The notes beneath the pieces were generated by a model. The model made no database searches, had not been told where the DNA came from, and saw nothing but the letters and a program-made list of their open reading frames with translations. Positions 58,256 through 64,000 of a stretch of DNA of 64,000 nt are shown here, piece after piece. The position numbers and the translations under genes were made by a program. Origin of the DNA: Limnohabitans sp. B9-3 (GTDB lineage: Bacteria; Pseudomonadota; Gammaproteobacteria; Burkholderiales; Burkholderiaceae_C); the NCBI RefSeq assembly GCF_002778325.1, contig NZ_NESI01000001.1, forward strand, positions 248,001 through 312,000, in the 5' to 3' direction. Within the stretch, counting starts at the first letter, position 1, and each line of letters opens with the position of its first letter.

Positions 58256-59869
58256 ATGACCAGCAAACCCAACGTACTCCTGATCCTGGCCGATGACATG
58301 GGGTTCTCCGACATCGGTTGTTACGGCAGCGAAATTGACACCCCACACATCGACCGGCTGGCGGCCGCGGGTGTGCGCTTCTCTCAGTTCTACAACACCG
58401 CCCGTTGCAGCCCTTCCAGGGCGTCGATGCTGACGGGTCTGCACCCGCACCAAACGGGCATCGGCATCCTCACGAAGGACGATCGACCGCACGGCTACCC
58501 AGGCTCTCTCAATGACCGCTGTGTCACCGTTGCCGAAATTTTGTCTGCAGCCGGGTATGCGACGTCGCTGGTTGGAAAGTGGCATCTGGCCTCGAACATT
58601 CGGCAGCCCAACGATGCGTGGCCCACGCGACGCGGGTTCGATCACTTTTATGGAACGCTCGCAGGTTCGTGCTCGTACTTTCAGCCCGCATCCCTCACCC
58701 GCGGGGAGCGCAATGTAGAAGCCGAAGCCACCGAAAAGTCTGATTACTACTACACGGACGCGATCTCGCAGGAAGCCTGCACCTTTGTGCGTGAACAGTC
58801 ACACGCCCAAAAGCCGTTCTTCATGTACGTCGCCTACACCGCGCCACATTGGCCGCTCCAAGCGAACGAAGAGGACATCGCCAAATACCGTGGTCGTTAC
58901 GATGAAGGCTGGGATGTGCTGCGTGAACGACGGATGCAGCGATTGCGTGAATCAGGCTTGCTGGCGGACGCCGTGCAGGATTGCGAGCGCGATCCCGAGG
59001 AACCCGCCTGGGAACAGGCAGAACACAAAGCTTGGGAAGCGCGACGCATGGAGGTCTATGCAGCCCAAGTGCACCGAATGGATCAGGGCATTGGCGAACT
59101 GCTGGCCACGCTTAAACAAACAGGACAACTTGAAAACACGCTGATCTTTTTCTTGTCTGACAACGGGGCCTGCGCCGAAGTTCTTCCGCTGGACGGTAGC
59201 GCTGAAGCGTTCAAGAAGCGCAGGCCAGACCTCGATCGCCTGAAGCCACGCCATGGGGGCGATTTGCAGGTCGGCAACGAGCCTTCCATCGTTCCGGGAT
59301 CGGAAGACACCTATGCCAGCTACGGCCGCGCTTGGGCTAATTTGTCCAACACGCCATTTCGGCTCTACAAGCGCTGGACACATGAGGGCGGCATCGCCAC
59401 ACCCTTGATCGTGCATTGGCCTGCAGGCGGACTGAATAACGGCGCCATCGTTCGAGCACCCTTTCAACTGACCGACATATTGCCAACCATCTTGGAGGCC
59501 ACGCAGGTTTTGTTGCCTGAGCACGGCAACAACCGAGACATTCCAAAAGGCGAAGGCTGCAGTTTCCTACCTGTTCTGCGTGGCGGCCAGCCGACCGACC
59601 ACACCTTGTATTGGGAGCACACCGGCAACGCTGCTATCCGGCGCGGTCGCTGGAAATTGGTGCGCGAATACCCCAAACCTTGGGAGCTTTATGACATGGA
59701 CACCGATCGGGCAGAAAAGACAGACTTAGCCCTGTCGAACCGGGAGGTCGTTCGTGAACTGGTCGCGCAATGGGAGGCATGGGCCGACCGTGTCGGGGTG
59801 GTGCCTTGGGATCACGTACTTGCAGGGTACCGCGCAGAGGGCAAGAGCGAGGCAGACGCAGCTGGGTGA
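58256..59869 (+). CDS. Type I (formylglycine) arylsulfatase
   Basis: 537 residues from the ATG at 58256. Sulfatase landmarks: calcium-binding Asp pair D13/D14 in LILADDMG, and CSPSRASMLTG with C51, the residue converted to formylglycine; GKWHLA and the C-terminal DNGA region supply further active-site residues. It hydrolyses sulfate esters. There is no signal peptide, so it is cytoplasmic, which fits a scheme where the substrate is imported first. The maturase FGE is not in this window. Its last 58 bases are antisense to the end of the histidine-kinase gene. Confidence 0.93.
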   Translation: MTSKPNVLLILADDMGFSDIGCYGSEIDTPHIDRLAAAGVRFSQFYNTARCSPSRASMLTGLHPHQTGIGILTKDDRPHGYPGSLNDRCVTVAEILSAAGYATSLVGKWHLASNIRQPNDAWPTRRGFDHFYGTLAGSCSYFQPASLTRGERNVEAEATEKSDYYYTDAISQEACTFVREQSHAQKPFFMYVAYTAPHWPLQANEEDIAKYRGRYDEGWDVLRERRMQRLRESGLLADAVQDCERDPEEPAWEQAEHKAWEARRMEVYAAQVHRMDQGIGELLATLKQTGQLENTLIFFLSDNGACAEVLPLDGSAEAFKKRRPDLDRLKPRHGGDLQVGNEPSIVPGSEDTYASYGRAWANLSNTPFRLYKRWTHEGGIATPLIVHWPAGGLNNGAIVRAPFQLTDILPTILEATQVLLPEHGNNRDIPKGEGCSFLPVLRGGQPTDHTLYWEHTGNAAIRRGRWKLVREYPKPWELYDMDTDRAEKTDLALSNREVVRELVAQWEAWADRVGVVPWDHVLAGYRAEGKSEADAAG

Positions 59870-61257
59870 TCCCGCAATGGGACGGTCAACTTCACCACCA
59901 CCGTTTGACGTTCGGTCACGACCAAAGTCAAAGTGCCTTCATGCACTTTGGCAATTTCCAAAGAAATACTTAAGCCTAAGCCGACACCATCAATCTTTCG
60001 TGTGTGGGATATGTCACCACGGTAAAAGCGGTCAAAAGCATGGGCAGATAAATCAGAGGGTATTTCTACAACTGGGTTTTCAATGGACAACTGAAAATGG
60101 CTTGCTGTGCGAATCAACTTGCAATCGACCCACCCTGACCGTTGGTTGAACTTGACCGCATTCGAAAAAAGATTGGTCATCAACTGAGTCATGAGCGTCT
60201 TGTCGCAACGCCAGTGGATGCCAGGCTCAATGGAACTAGAGATTTTCAATCCCGATCTGAAATTGAGCGAATCACCCAACAAGTACGTTAAAAACTCACT
60301 TAAATCGACATCGGTCAATTCCTTCGCCAATGAGTTTGAATCGGCGCGTGAAAGAAGTAAAAGTTTTTCAGTAATTTCAATCAGGCGCTCGACCTCATCC
60401 GACACATTGCGCATACGGACTTGTACTTCTGACCCAGCTGGTAATTCACCAATCATTTGTTCAACATTGCCCCTCAGAATGGCAAGCGGTGTGCGCAATT
60501 CATGAGATGCATCTGAAGAAAATCGGCGAGCTCTTAAAAAACTATCGCTTAAACGAATCCGTAGATCTTCATAAACTTGAATTAATCCCGCAAATTCTTT
60601 AAATGGAACATTCAACGCCACAGAATTATCAAGGTTTTGGGCTGTTAGCTGAGAAATATTATCTTGGATTGAAATAATGGGACGCATCATCACACTAACC
60701 AAATACCAGGTTAGCAGCATCAGCATAAACAATATGGATGGCACAACAAACATTGTAAAACGATCACGGATTTTCCACAAACGCTCCATCATTACATTAA
60801 TTTTTTCACGTTCAAGCCAAATTTCTTTGTTCTTTTGATGGTCTTGAAATTTCACGCCAAGCCAATACTTTCCATCAACCAATCCACTAGAAAGAATTAA
60901 ATCATTGTTAGTTATGGCATTTTCATTCAACCAAAATGACTGGTTCTTTAAAAATTTGTAGCACAATGAAGATTTAGCAGCATCAGTAGAAATCTGATTG
61001 TCATCACAAAGAATATAAAAATCAGATATTGAATTTAAAATTCCACCTAATTCCATACTTTTAAAACAACTTATAAAACTATCTTGCGGATAAAACTCAT
61101 TTGCGCAAGATTTCAACGCAACTCCCATCTTTTGATGTATATCTTTCTCTAACTCATTGGTTAACAAAGATTGCGCGATCATCCGATTGGTAAAAATAAT
61201 TACTACCGTGATTAAAAATACATTTAAAAATATACGTATTTTAAAAGAGTTTTTCAT
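59812..61257 (-). CDS. Sensor histidine kinase
   Basis: 481 residues. TM1 at about 9-28, a periplasmic sensor with four cysteines (C51, C64, C84, C99), TM2 at about 169-188, HAMP, then DASHELRTPLAI with phospho-accepting H252, N-box NLFSNAVKFN and G-box GVGLGLS. It pairs with the OmpR-type regulator three bases upstream. The last ~18 residues (RDHPAASASLLPS...) are read from the antisense of the sulfatase end, a sign that the original 3' end was replaced. The gene is much more AT-rich than its neighbours on the left. Confidence 0.93.
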   Translation of the reverse strand: MKNSFKIRIFLNVFLITVVIIFTNRMIAQSLLTNELEKDIHQKMGVALKSCANEFYPQDSFISCFKSMELGGILNSISDFYILCDDNQISTDAAKSSLCYKFLKNQSFWLNENAITNNDLILSSGLVDGKYWLGVKFQDHQKNKEIWLEREKINVMMERLWKIRDRFTMFVVPSILFMLMLLTWYLVSVMMRPIISIQDNISQLTAQNLDNSVALNVPFKEFAGLIQVYEDLRIRLSDSFLRARRFSSDASHELRTPLAILRGNVEQMIGELPAGSEVQVRMRNVSDEVERLIEITEKLLLLSRADSNSLAKELTDVDLSEFLTYLLGDSLNFRSGLKISSSIEPGIHWRCDKTLMTQLMTNLFSNAVKFNQRSGWVDCKLIRTASHFQLSIENPVVEIPSDLSAHAFDRFYRGDISHTRKIDGVGLGLSISLEIAKVHEGTLTLVVTERQTVVVKLTVPLRDHPAASASLLPSARYPAST

Positions 61258-61260
61258 AAA

Positions 61261-61941
61261 TCACTCCTGAACACGCAATCTGTAACCGACGCCACGCACC
61301 GACTCAATAGGGGATGGAATGCCAACGGTCGAACTCTCCAGCTTTTGCTTAATTCGACGGACATAAACATCCACCACATTCGTTTCTGGATCGAAGTTAA
61401 TTTCCCAAACGTTCTTAAGAATTTGCTGCCTAGAGAATATATGACCTGGCGATCGCATTAAAAATGCCAACAAGTTAAATTCGCGCTGACTCAGCACTGC
61501 TGTGACGTCAAACCACTTAGCTTTGTGAGTGACCACATCTAAGCTGAGATGACCAACCGCTATGAGCTTCACAGTGTCAGGCATCTTGCGATTCATCACA
61601 GCCTTGATGCGCGCAATTAACTCTTCAACAAAAAATGGTTTTGGCAAATAATCATCTGCACCCATTTCAAAGCCCCTCAAACGATCCGTCAGATCAACTT
61701 TGGCACTCAGGATGATGATGGGCGTTGTGTTTCCCTCAGATTTCGCGCGCTTCAAAACATCAAACCCATTGAGCTTAGGCAACATCAAGTCTAATATCAC
61801 CAAATCATATTCATTGGTCATGATGGCAACCAGGCCAAGCTCTCCATCCTCTACAAGGCTCACCTCATAACCTGCAGAAACCAAGCCCTTGACAACGAAT
61901 TCAGCAATTTTGCTTTCATCTTCAATCAGTAAAATTTTCAA
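61261..61941 (-). CDS. OmpR/PhoB-family response regulator
   Basis: 226 residues, TTG start with AAGGG about nine bases upstream. Receiver domain: E7/D8, phospho-acceptor D51 (LVILDLMLP), Lys101 (YLPKPF). C-terminal winged helix at about 130-225 (LSQREFNLLAFLMRSPGHIFSRQQIL ... VDVYVRRIKQKLE). Sequence style is CusR/PcoR-like. It precedes the kinase gene and follows the 61-residue peptide gene by 37 bases, so all may be one transcript. Confidence 0.94.
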   Translation of the reverse strand: MKILLIEDESKIAEFVVKGLVSAGYEVSLVEDGELGLVAIMTNEYDLVILDLMLPKLNGFDVLKRAKSEGNTTPIIILSAKVDLTDRLRGFEMGADDYLPKPFFVEELIARIKAVMNRKMPDTVKLIAVGHLSLDVVTHKAKWFDVTAVLSQREFNLLAFLMRSPGHIFSRQQILKNVWEINFDPETNVVDVYVRRIKQKLESSTVGIPSPIESVRGVGYRLRVQE

Positions 61942-61978
61942 AATTTTTATCCCTTACTGCGTTAGATCAAGCATGGTG

Positions 61979-62164
61979 TTAGTTGCTATCTTTGTTCGAA
62001 ATTGAATGACGATAAAGTAGGTCAGGTGTGGCTGTTGAACAAAGGAATCCGTTTTCTTGGTCTTTGGTGTGAAAGCAATGCAAACTCCCACAAACACCAT
62101 ACATCCCTACAATGAGTGTGCAGATGGCAACTAATTGAAGGGCTATTTTAATATTGACTTTCAT
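61979..62164 (-). CDS. Small membrane or exported cysteine-containing peptide
   Basis: 61 residues. A hydrophobic segment (about 7-24) is followed by a hydrophilic tail with cysteines at 25, 30 and 42 besides C16. It overlaps the upstream 282-residue gene by 17 bases, and GGCGAG lies shortly before the ATG. No family recognised. It sits between an H-NS-like gene pair and a two-component pair. Confidence 0.55.
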   Translation of the reverse strand: MKVNIKIALQLVAICTLIVGMYGVCGSLHCFHTKDQENGFLCSTATPDLLYRHSISNKDSN

Positions 62165-62996
62165 TCATCTCGCCGCTTTTAAATGCTGCACCATTATCCG
62201 CAACGATGATTTTGTCTAGCTCGTAACTAAAGAAAAATAAAAAATTATCAAAAAGTCTGAGTGGCACCCCATCTTTGAAATCTATCTTGTGGTGCGTCAA
62301 TGCAAAATTATCGCCCTCATCTGAAATCAACTTCCATTTCAATGGGGAAAAACTTTCCATATATTCATTGAAGTTGAATTTAATTTGGCTATTTGCCCAA
62401 TCAATAAATTTCATAGCTAATGCATTTTCATCCTTCAAAAAATCAAGGCGACCGATGAGATTCATCACTTTATCTTTTTTATTTACCATGATCATAATTG
62501 GATGGGGAAGTCCTTCAACGACATGGATCAAATCACCCTCCTCAAGGAGGACTCGATACCGCTTCCTTTTCAAGTAAACCTCGAGAAATTCAGATGTGAA
62601 ATCTTTACTTCCAATCAATGAGGGGGCCATCTCATCTTTTAGGCTTCTTATCTCCTCTGTGAGATACAACAAGTCATGCATGATCTTGTCGCCCACTTGG
62701 GCCTTGTAACCGTGTTTTTTCAAACACTGCAAGAAGCAACTACAAACCTCATCAAATTGATGCACACTAATTTTGGCGGAATCAATAGCTGTGCGAACTG
62801 GGTTTAATCTGTAATCTGATGCTTGCTTTGGGAAAATATATTGTGAATATTTGCATATTCCGTCAATAAACACTTCTTTTCTGGTGAACTTTAGATAGTG
62901 ACTCGCATACTCATTGCTGCATACTTTGTCATGCATTTCACCCAAAATTAATTTGAATTTCGGATTGTTCAGAAAATCGTGTGTGGGAAGTTGCAT
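62148..62996 (-). CDS. Protein of unknown function, YbjN-like C-terminal region
   Basis: 282 residues, AT-rich, no signal peptide. The N-terminal half is helical with scattered cysteines. The C-terminal ~110 residues, from RVLLEEGDLIHVVEG through FIDWANSQIKFNFNEYMES to FDNFLFFFSYELDKI, have the hydrophobic pattern of the YbjN/type-III-chaperone-like fold, but the match is weak. Its ATG follows the stop of the H-NS-like gene with no gap. Function unknown. Confidence 0.7.
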   Translation of the reverse strand: MQLPTHDFLNNPKFKLILGEMHDKVCSNEYASHYLKFTRKEVFIDGICKYSQYIFPKQASDYRLNPVRTAIDSAKISVHQFDEVCSCFLQCLKKHGYKAQVGDKIMHDLLYLTEEIRSLKDEMAPSLIGSKDFTSEFLEVYLKRKRYRVLLEEGDLIHVVEGLPHPIMIMVNKKDKVMNLIGRLDFLKDENALAMKFIDWANSQIKFNFNEYMESFSPLKWKLISDEGDNFALTHHKIDFKDGVPLRLFDNFLFFFSYELDKIIVADNGAAFKSGEMNESQY

Positions 62997-63251
62997 TTAA
63001 TTTGACAACCACTTGCTGACTTTGGTGGACTTTTTTTGGTCTACAGGTATATTGATCGCTTCCTCAGAGTAGCGAGCAGATGTGAGTTTATCTTGAAAAT
63101 CTTTGATCGTAAATTTATGCATGATGCATAATTTCTTGATCAAATCTAAATCAGCACTGCGTTTTTCAGAAAGCTTCTTGTTTATTATTTGGCTAAGTTC
63201 AGCTTGCTGACGTAACAACTCATCCATCTCATCTATTTTTGAATTTTCCAT
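62997..63251 (-). CDS. Truncated H-NS-like protein
   Basis: 84 residues from the ATG at 63251, which has AAGGA seven bases upstream; a GTG-started frame 37 codons longer lacks such a site. The first 55 residues (MDELLRQQAELSQIINKKLSEKR ... LCIMHKFTIKDF) resemble the N-terminal coiled-coil oligomerisation domain of betaproteobacterial H-NS. The C-terminal DNA-binding motif with GRGxxPKW is not present; only a short KKSTKVSKWLSN end remains. It could act by mixing with full-length H-NS. Confidence 0.62.
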   Translation of the reverse strand: MENSKIDEMDELLRQQAELSQIINKKLSEKRSADLDLIKKLCIMHKFTIKDFQDKLTSARYSEEAINIPVDQKKSTKVSKWLSN

Positions 63252-63432
63252 AGCGAGTCCTTGAAGTTTTCTACAGGTTCTCACTCTATCTTTTTCAACG
63301 TTTTGAAAAATTAATTTTCTTTCATCTGTCGGTTTATGAATATTCTTTAATTTTTTCACCAATTAAAAATTGAATTTTATTTAATTATTTAAATAGATGA
63401 TTAAATCTTATGCATTTTTAGAGACGAAAAAA

Positions 63433-63461
63433 AACCCTAAGAGATGTAATCACTTAGGGTT
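63433..63461 (-). terminator. Terminator-like hairpin with T-run on the minus strand
   Basis: AACCCTAAG / CTTAGGGTT, nine-base arms with an eleven-base loop. Read on the minus strand it is followed by eight T residues, so it would stop minus-strand transcription coming from the right (antisense to chrB). On the plus strand there is no T-run. Confidence 0.6.
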
Positions 63462-63481
63462 CTTGACTGGCGGAGCAGAAC

Positions 63482-63556
63482 ATGCTTCATCACAAACCGC
63501 CTAAGTTTCCCAAGGACAAGCCGATTAAGCACTTGGGGTTTAAGTCTGCATTCTAA
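63482..63556 (+). CDS. Possible 24-residue leader-type reading frame
   Basis: ATG at 63482 with GGAG six bases upstream, stop TAA at 63554-63556. It would make a very basic peptide (MLHHKPPKFPKDKPIKHLG...). It lies between a hairpin and the chrB promoter. A good ribosome site is the only positive evidence; it may be chance. Confidence 0.25.
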   Translation: MLHHKPPKFPKDKPIKHLGFKSAF

Positions 63557-63668
63557 ATGTTGAGACATCTTCTTGTTAAAAGAGTTTTCAGAACATCTGT
63601 GTTGAAGTTATCCAGAATTTGAAGCTGATAGGTCGCTCCACTGTGCCCTTTCGACCCAAAGCGGACGT

Positions 63669-63697
63669 TTGCTCATCCAATAAAAGTTTATTAATTT
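63669..63697 (+). promoter_or_regulatory. Sigma70-like promoter of chrB
   Basis: TTGCTC, 17-base spacer, TAATTT, about 57 bases upstream of the chrB ATG. The spacing is ideal and both hexamers are partial matches. Confidence 0.5.
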
Positions 63698-63727
63698 AAC
63701 CTCCAGTTTTTTGATGTGTATACCTCG

Positions 63728-63753
63728 AAGTTTGAGGCATATACTTCAAACTT
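63728..63753. promoter_or_regulatory. Inverted repeat abutting the chrB start codon
   Basis: AAGTTTGA (63728-63735) and TCAAACTT (63746-63753), eight-base perfect arms with a ten-base centre; the right arm ends at the base before ATG. A second imperfect repeat, GTATACCTC/GAGG..TATAC, overlaps on the left. Likely operator for ChrB, which is known as a chromate-responsive regulator of its own operon. Confidence 0.55.
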
Positions 63754-64000
63754 ATGTGGAGCGCTCTTTTTCTCACCCTGCCAACGCAACCGAAGGCAAT
63801 TCGCCTGCGCATTTGGCGTGCGCTCAAAACTCTTGGGTGCCCTTCATTGCGTGATGGCGTTTATTTGCTGCCTGAGTCTCACGCTGAATTGTTCGATCCG
63901 CTAGTTTCTGAGGTACGCGAGAACGGTGGTCAGGCGCATGTGCTGCAACTTTCAACTCATGACGAAGCAATGCGCACCGAAGTGCTAGCCTTGTTTGACC
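63754..64000 (+). CDS. chrB: Chromate resistance regulator ChrB, N-terminal part
   Basis: 82 codons, open at the right edge. The sequence LFLTLPTQPKAIRLRIWRALKTLGC and LRDGVYLLPE match the N-terminal domain of ChrB, the chromate-sensing regulator usually followed by the chromate exporter gene chrA. A stop in another frame shortens the neighbouring frame, but this one runs through. The rest of the operon lies outside the window. Confidence 0.85.
   Translation, partial: MWSALFLTLPTQPKAIRLRIWRALKTLGCPSLRDGVYLLPESHAELFDPLVSEVRENGGQAHVLQLSTHDEAMRTEVLALFD

Follow-up and report, generated by a model that had tools for sequence, protein, structure and literature searches.

A pseudo-globin/YbjN protein beside a two-component pair in an exchanged cassette of Limnohabitans sp. 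B9-3: a possible signalling adaptor

An AT-rich block of minus-strand genes in Limnohabitans sp. B9-3 encodes an OmpR/PhoB-type two-component pair together with a 282-residue protein, here called P282, which is predicted to join a truncated-haemoglobin fold lacking the proximal histidine to a YbjN-like fold. The block lies in the window, by which we mean the whole 64,000-nucleotide stretch analysed (contig NZ_NESI01000001.1, positions 248,001 to 312,000). We tentatively propose, with a probability of about 0.42, that the block is a signalling cassette in which P282 acts as a non-haem globin/chaperone-like adaptor tuning the neighbouring pair. The association of P282 relatives with two-component pairs, often with a small Cys-rich protein, does hold at the scale of the genus. 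The features of the block, in window coordinates, are as follows.

59812-61257, minus: sensor histidine kinase, 481 aa, with four sensor cysteines (PF00512, 3.4e-12; PF02518, 1.2e-15)
61261-61941, minus: OmpR/PhoB-type response regulator, 226 aa, TTG start (Response_reg, 9.2e-26; Trans_reg_C, 1e-23)
61979-62164, minus: 61-aa open reading frame (ORF) with hydrophobic N-terminus and four cysteines, perhaps related to the c24 Cys-rich family
62148-62996, minus: P282, 282 aa, predicted two-domain pseudo-truncated-globin and YbjN-like protein (family profile, AF2 model, fold searches)
62643-62990, minus: P282 residues 3-118 (approximate), predicted group 1 truncated-haemoglobin fold with Ile at F8 (profile, fold search)
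62169-62621, minus: P282 residues 126-276 (approximate), predicted YbjN / class I type III secretion system chaperone-like fold
62997-63251 (ATG) or to 63362 (TTG), minus: 84-aa upstream gene (ORF)

All five ORFs lie on the minus strand within 59812-63251 (or to 63362), separated by 0, -17, 37 and 3 nt, exactly as an earlier sequence-only reading of this DNA had described them. Its remark that the block is AT-rich beside GC-rich genes to the left was also borne out: GC is 0.38-0.40 across 60001-64000 vs 0.53-0.65 in the remaining window, and GC at third codon positions is 0.35-0.49 in the five ORFs vs 0.67 in two measured left-hand genes.

Domains of P282 and the missing proximal histidine

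P282, which the sequence-only reading had listed as an unknown, is now resolved as a globin-fold plus YbjN-fold protein. Pfam and NCBIfam gave no match for the window P282 itself, and the Pfam YbjN model PF10722 matched 2 of 38 family members (best 2.9e-3), the window copy not among them. A profile of the family, compared with PDB sequences, showed similarity of residues 3-118 to truncated haemoglobins (1.1e-11), and an AF2 model (pLDDT 80) was submitted to fold searches. By prediction and profile, the N-terminal half combines the 2-on-2 globin fold with the sequence profile of group 1 truncated haemoglobins, and the C-terminal half adopts the YbjN/class I chaperone fold. The protein is presumably cytosolic.

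We then aligned 62 family members to the truncated haemoglobin 3aq5. The F8 column held Pro in 45, Ile in 6, Ser in 4, Val and Thr in 2 each, Gln and Asn in 1 each and a gap in 1; the proximal histidine occurs in 0 of the 61 members with a letter there, and the window copy has Ile. The control set comprised 17 truncated-globin proteins, drawn from 16 fetched stretches of which some lie within the genus and some outside it; all lack the YbjN half and some are fused to other domains. Here 13 of 17 carry His in the F8 column, the remaining rows being explained by a nearby His shifted by the alignment (two in L173, one in L171) or by a gap (L184). Since the F8 His is missing from the P282 family and mostly kept in the control globins, conventional haem binding by P282 appears unlikely.

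Several other globin arrangements were seen along the way. A 262-aa protein (L169:2339-3127) combines a receiver domain, assigned by eye, with a truncated haemoglobin that keeps the F8 His, and a truncated haemoglobin of the genus (L179:620-1261) has a CxxC zinc-ribbon-like stretch (by eye) preceding its globin part; an N-terminal extension is found in several other truncated haemoglobins of the genus as well. Long P282-family proteins (541-605 aa) occur in L059, L060, L076, L079, L081 and L093, and the only one scanned, that of L076, matched coiled-coil models and the transposase domain PF05598 (1.7e-8) ahead of its globin-YbjN part.

Distribution, neighbourhoods and kinase lineages

Profile matches were found in 55 of the 84 genomes of the genus, about 52 of which hold a proper P282 member by our reading of the match table; G043, G008 (short globin-type match) and G004 (49-aa fragment) were not counted as such. 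A first scan of the genome contigs with the window P282 protein as sole query found no relative. Wider samples, which overlap and are not complete, gave matches in 6 of 399 genomes of the family (3 outside the genus), 14 of 399 of the order (13 outside) and 23 of 398 of the phylum (22 outside), and all of these extra-genus matches stop by profile position 128, covering the globin part only. Within the genomes and samples searched, proteins that appear to join the globin and YbjN halves were thus found only in one Comamonadaceae genus. Named records of P282 relatives are mostly from Comamonadaceae and Burkholderiales bins, one being labelled Limnohabitans. Viral contigs yielded 85 pattern matches, 0 of them confirmed, and no match was found for phage carriers; the single plasmid match is to a gene whose annotation reads group 1 truncated haemoglobin, leaving no confirmed plasmid carrier.

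A kinase or regulator gene on the same strand lies within 700 nt of P282 in 16 of 62 fetched loci, including both copies of this genome; with the window excluded, the count is 15 of 61. Farther than 3 kb from P282 in the same loci there were 2 kinases in 269.5 kb, the kinase model used for the count having been built from kinases of these same loci. Among the linked loci other than the window, gene order is regular: all 15 have the kinase upstream of P282, and 14 have the regulator ahead of the kinase, L047 ending there. Alongside them, 9 of the 15 encode a small Cys-rich, apparently secreted protein, of type c24 (L004, L057, L058, L062) or c10 (L038, L043, L044, L047, L056), and 6 have no such neighbour; the Cys-rich proteins have hydrophobic starts, their signal peptides being judged by eye. 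These counts keep part of the earlier suggestion of a signalling unit with accessories, namely P282 beside a two-component gene and frequently a Cys-rich protein, and leave a five-gene system unsupported: no second instance of the exact set was found in the genomes compared. Co-occurrence, proposed as a check, likewise fails for the H-NS-like gene and the exact pair lineage and holds for P282 with two-component pairs generally. In one P282 clade (L049, L050, L063, L065, L067, L077) P282 is followed by a gamma-glutamylcyclotransferase-like gene (PF06094, 6.7e-22 in L049).

The pair in the window consists of a HisKA and HATPase kinase adjoining a receiver and winged-helix regulator, and its catalytic domains are intact as judged from the domain matches. 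In a tree of 44 kinases, taken by similarity to the window kinase rather than from the whole kinase set of the genus, the P282-linked kinases of 14 of the 16 loci (L047 and L063 were left out for broken kinase ORFs) fall in three places: a clade of 8, a clade of 5, and the place of the window kinase. The case for association rests on these three placements and not on 16 loci, because orthologous linked loci are not independent. The window kinase is nested in a clade (98/94, itself within a clade of 96/94) in which 11 of the 14 other members are linked to a homologous TerB-like protein and the contigs of the remaining three (L141, L142, L152) end at the kinase. TerB-like proteins, assigned through PF05099 (1.9e-11 in L133, where a tsaD-like gene, named by eye, lies next to the TerB-like gene), were present in 17 of 31 loci searched. 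The regulator-kinase-TerB-like locus recurs in many genomes of the genus (L133-L149), with TerB-like proteins of 595-828 aa.

The four sensor cysteines singled out by the sequence-only reading are indeed present. Both the TerB-linked clade and the L049-L077 clade, whose kinases are linked to P282, conserve them; with conservation across so wide a clade of related kinases, they are no special feature of the block. We also considered a thiol link between sensor cysteines and Cys-rich proteins, which is not favoured: kinases beside c24 or c10 proteins have no sensor cysteines, and the L049-L077 kinases have them but no Cys-rich neighbour.

The cassette site and the small ORFs

The block is well supported as a horizontally exchanged cassette, flanked by a sulfatase gene on one side and tRNA-Ser(CGA) on the other. 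The features that bound it are listed below.

59870-59877: left cassette junction; similarity to genome G062 ends at 59876
63430-63464, minus: palindrome with T-run at the upstream edge of the block (inverted repeat I4)
63468-63475: TGGCGGAG, candidate attachment repeat; the tRNA-Ser(cga) gene has the same letters at its 3' end
68568-68657 in window numbering, beyond the window: tRNA-Ser(cga) gene (L003:11568-11657)

The sulfatase gene was found at E <=1e-100 in 3 of 84 genomes: this one, G062 (96% identity) and G041 (87%). G062 aligns to the window with 94% identity as far as 59876, and the match resumes, at 89%, from 68567 in window numbering (beyond the window), the start of the tRNA-Ser(cga) gene; in between (L167:6295-10862) G062 encodes a 556-aa TerB-like protein together with a regulator and a kinase of the 7TMR-DISM type. 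G041 stops resembling the window at 59870, beyond which comes an unrelated ORF of 600 aa. At the same junction the window kinase extends past the end of its orthologues by about 20 codons, which are read from the sulfatase flank; the kinase's own stop and anything after it have been lost. Horizontal acquisition, put forward in the sequence-only reading, is therefore upheld by the sharp GC change, the different cassette at this site in G062 and the kinase tail. The locus is a chromosomal spot at which relatives carry different signalling cassettes.

A 48-nt palindrome-bearing stretch beside tRNA-Ser in G062 (L167) recurs at window positions 63429-63475, ending in the repeat at 63468-63475; the palindrome at 63430 is missing from the output of the terminator scan. 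A chrB-chrA-metallo-hydrolase segment lies between this repeat and the true tRNA-Ser(cga). A second, separate insertion at the tRNA fits this arrangement, the eight-base repeat being too short as proof. An Rfam scan of 59500-64000 found no conserved RNA, the promoter/terminator scan returned 9 promoter-like sites vs 9.2 expected, and a search of 61900-63800 for OmpR-type direct repeats found none.

For the 61-aa ORF we compared four models. Against a hidden Markov model built from c24 only it scored 8.5 bits, a value reached by 2 of 5000 shuffles; the shuffles scoring as high numbered 554 of 5000 for c24 and c27 combined, 3723 of 5000 for c27 and 4215 of 5000 for c10. With one model of four low in shuffles, kinship to c24 may be taken as a lead only.

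The 84-aa upstream gene had been labelled a truncated H-NS-like protein, a label that our searches do not support. No H-NS model matched it in Pfam (E up to 1), NCBIfam or PHROGs, no PDB H-NS sequence matched at E up to 1, and its two relatives also drew no Pfam H-NS model at E up to 1. Beyond itself, the gene has just two relatives, a weak partial match in G063 and another within this genome; ORFs near these sole relatives found (L131, L132) resemble, by eye, pieces of tyrosine recombinases. The start at 63251 looks better than the TTG at 63362, because AGGA lies a few bases upstream of this ATG and the weak homology of the gene begins close by.

Weighing the adaptor proposal

We propose an adaptor role for P282 by reference to the protein-contact role of YbjN proteins and to the RsbR precedent. 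The cited sources describe YbjN proteins as having a class I chaperone fold and as held to act by protein-protein contact, with AmyR perhaps acting on the Rcs phosphorelay, possibly on a response regulator (PMC5398634, PMC3445560); they also describe the binding of DdrB by DR1245 (PMC3575483) and RsbR as a case of a globin without haem that has a signalling function (PMC6614362). By analogy, the core of the cassette would be the OmpR/PhoB-type pair, its kinase reading an extracytoplasmic signal; the YbjN half of P282 would hold or release the regulator or another partner and so tune the pathway, the haem-less globin half, like that of RsbR, would serve in dimerisation or in sensing without haem, and the small Cys peptide with its hydrophobic start, provided it is real, might be an envelope accessory. 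The signal itself and co-transcription of P282 with the pair are presumed steps. A broader version, in which P282 proteins form a genus-specific adaptor class recruited separately by at least three kinase lineages and integrating cytosolic non-haem globin and envelope cues on one regulator, some lineages adding a secreted Cys-rich partner, strikes us as doubtful.

A number of observations weigh against the adaptor proposal. No two-component gene was found near P282 in 46 of the 62 neighbourhoods (4 of the 46 offering too little upstream sequence to judge), and the family is therefore not dedicated to such pairs. Cys-rich proteins also occur at pair-less P282 loci (c24 at L061; c27 at L076, L079, L084, L091 and L093), and the sensor cysteines are missing from the P282-linked kinase clade that has Cys-rich neighbours. 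Many of the linked loci are orthologous. The window itself departs from the other 15 in its order, P282-Cys61-regulator-kinase, and its P282 is very divergent, with an end branch of 4.33 changes per column in the P282 tree. The 61-aa ORF is in itself weak evidence of a gene: when the region was resampled with a Markov model, 801 of 5000 sequences contained an ORF of at least 61 aa. Finally, full-length relatives of the window kinase (45-56% identity) occur in 12 genomes, and 0 of these 12 closest orthologues adjoin P282; in 10 a TerB-like protein follows the kinase, and for L141 and L142, the remaining two, the contig stops right after the kinase. Because the closest orthologues of the pair have a TerB-like protein and no P282, the partnership in the window may have arisen by chance when the cassette was put together.

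This last point leads to the explanation that two unrelated fragments have come to lie side by side, a TerB-type pair that lost TerB and a separately acquired piece with P282 and the H-NS-like gene, without a functional link. We regard it as a real possibility, although not one we would choose: for the window such chance juxtaposition is nearly as likely as an adaptor role, and less so for the linked relatives. It is suited by the nesting of the kinase among TerB-linked ones, the loss of its stop and following sequence at the left junction, the 206 nt between P282 and the regulator, and the lack of a strong TerB-like relative elsewhere in this genome (best 1.4e-5), but it sits poorly with P282 relatives adjoining pairs of two other kinase clades and with both P282 copies of this genome adjoining a pair. 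P282 could also be a general YbjN-like stress chaperone that comes close to pairs through shared insertion spots. The pair-less majority of neighbourhoods, many of them metabolic-looking by eye, and a P282 gene GC lower than the surroundings in 60 of 62 loci point that way; the kinase-(Cys protein)-P282 order and tight spacing kept over diverged loci do not, and we hold this rather unlikely. That P282 is a true haem protein with another ligand, feeding the pair as a gas or redox sensor, is improbable given the F8 comparison with control globins above, even though the fold is that of a globin, 50 of the 62 members have Tyr or His in the B10 column, where 4 have gaps, and the KHFF position is His in 58 of 58 members with a letter. 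An anti-phage or toxin-antitoxin type cassette, which the tRNA-side position and low GC might suggest, is very improbable: P282, the Cys ORF and the upstream gene matched nothing in PADLOC and PHROGs better than E 0.005, and many P282 relatives lie among metabolic-looking genes.

Set beside known systems, P282 shares 9-13% identity with YbjN proteins (E. coli YbjN, 6vu7; E. amylovora AmyR, 5fr7; D. radiodurans DR1245, 4h5b) but carries its YbjN-like half fused behind a globin-like domain. Residues 3-118 resemble group 1 truncated haemoglobins (3aq5, 1dlw, M. tuberculosis HbN) in fold and profile, but without the proximal F8 His and with a C-terminal YbjN domain. The likeness to RsbR, the stressosome non-haem globin, is conceptual, lying in the idea of a haem-less globin-fold signalling domain (PMC6614362), and the partner domain is STAS in RsbR and YbjN in P282. 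Kinase and regulator have the architecture of OmpR/PhoB-type pairs with auxiliary proteins, the candidate auxiliaries here being the pseudo-globin/YbjN protein and a Cys-containing peptide; in the most related pairs, those of the RR-HK-TerB-like (regulator-kinase-TerB-like) loci of the genus (L133 etc.), the partner is instead a TerB-like protein of 556-828 aa and there is no P282.

In conclusion, the pseudo-globin/YbjN fusion, of which the literature matches listed hold no description, would allow the role of a globin fold to be tested once haem is gone. It would also bear on what YbjN-type proteins bind, as the partner of P282 may be encoded next door.

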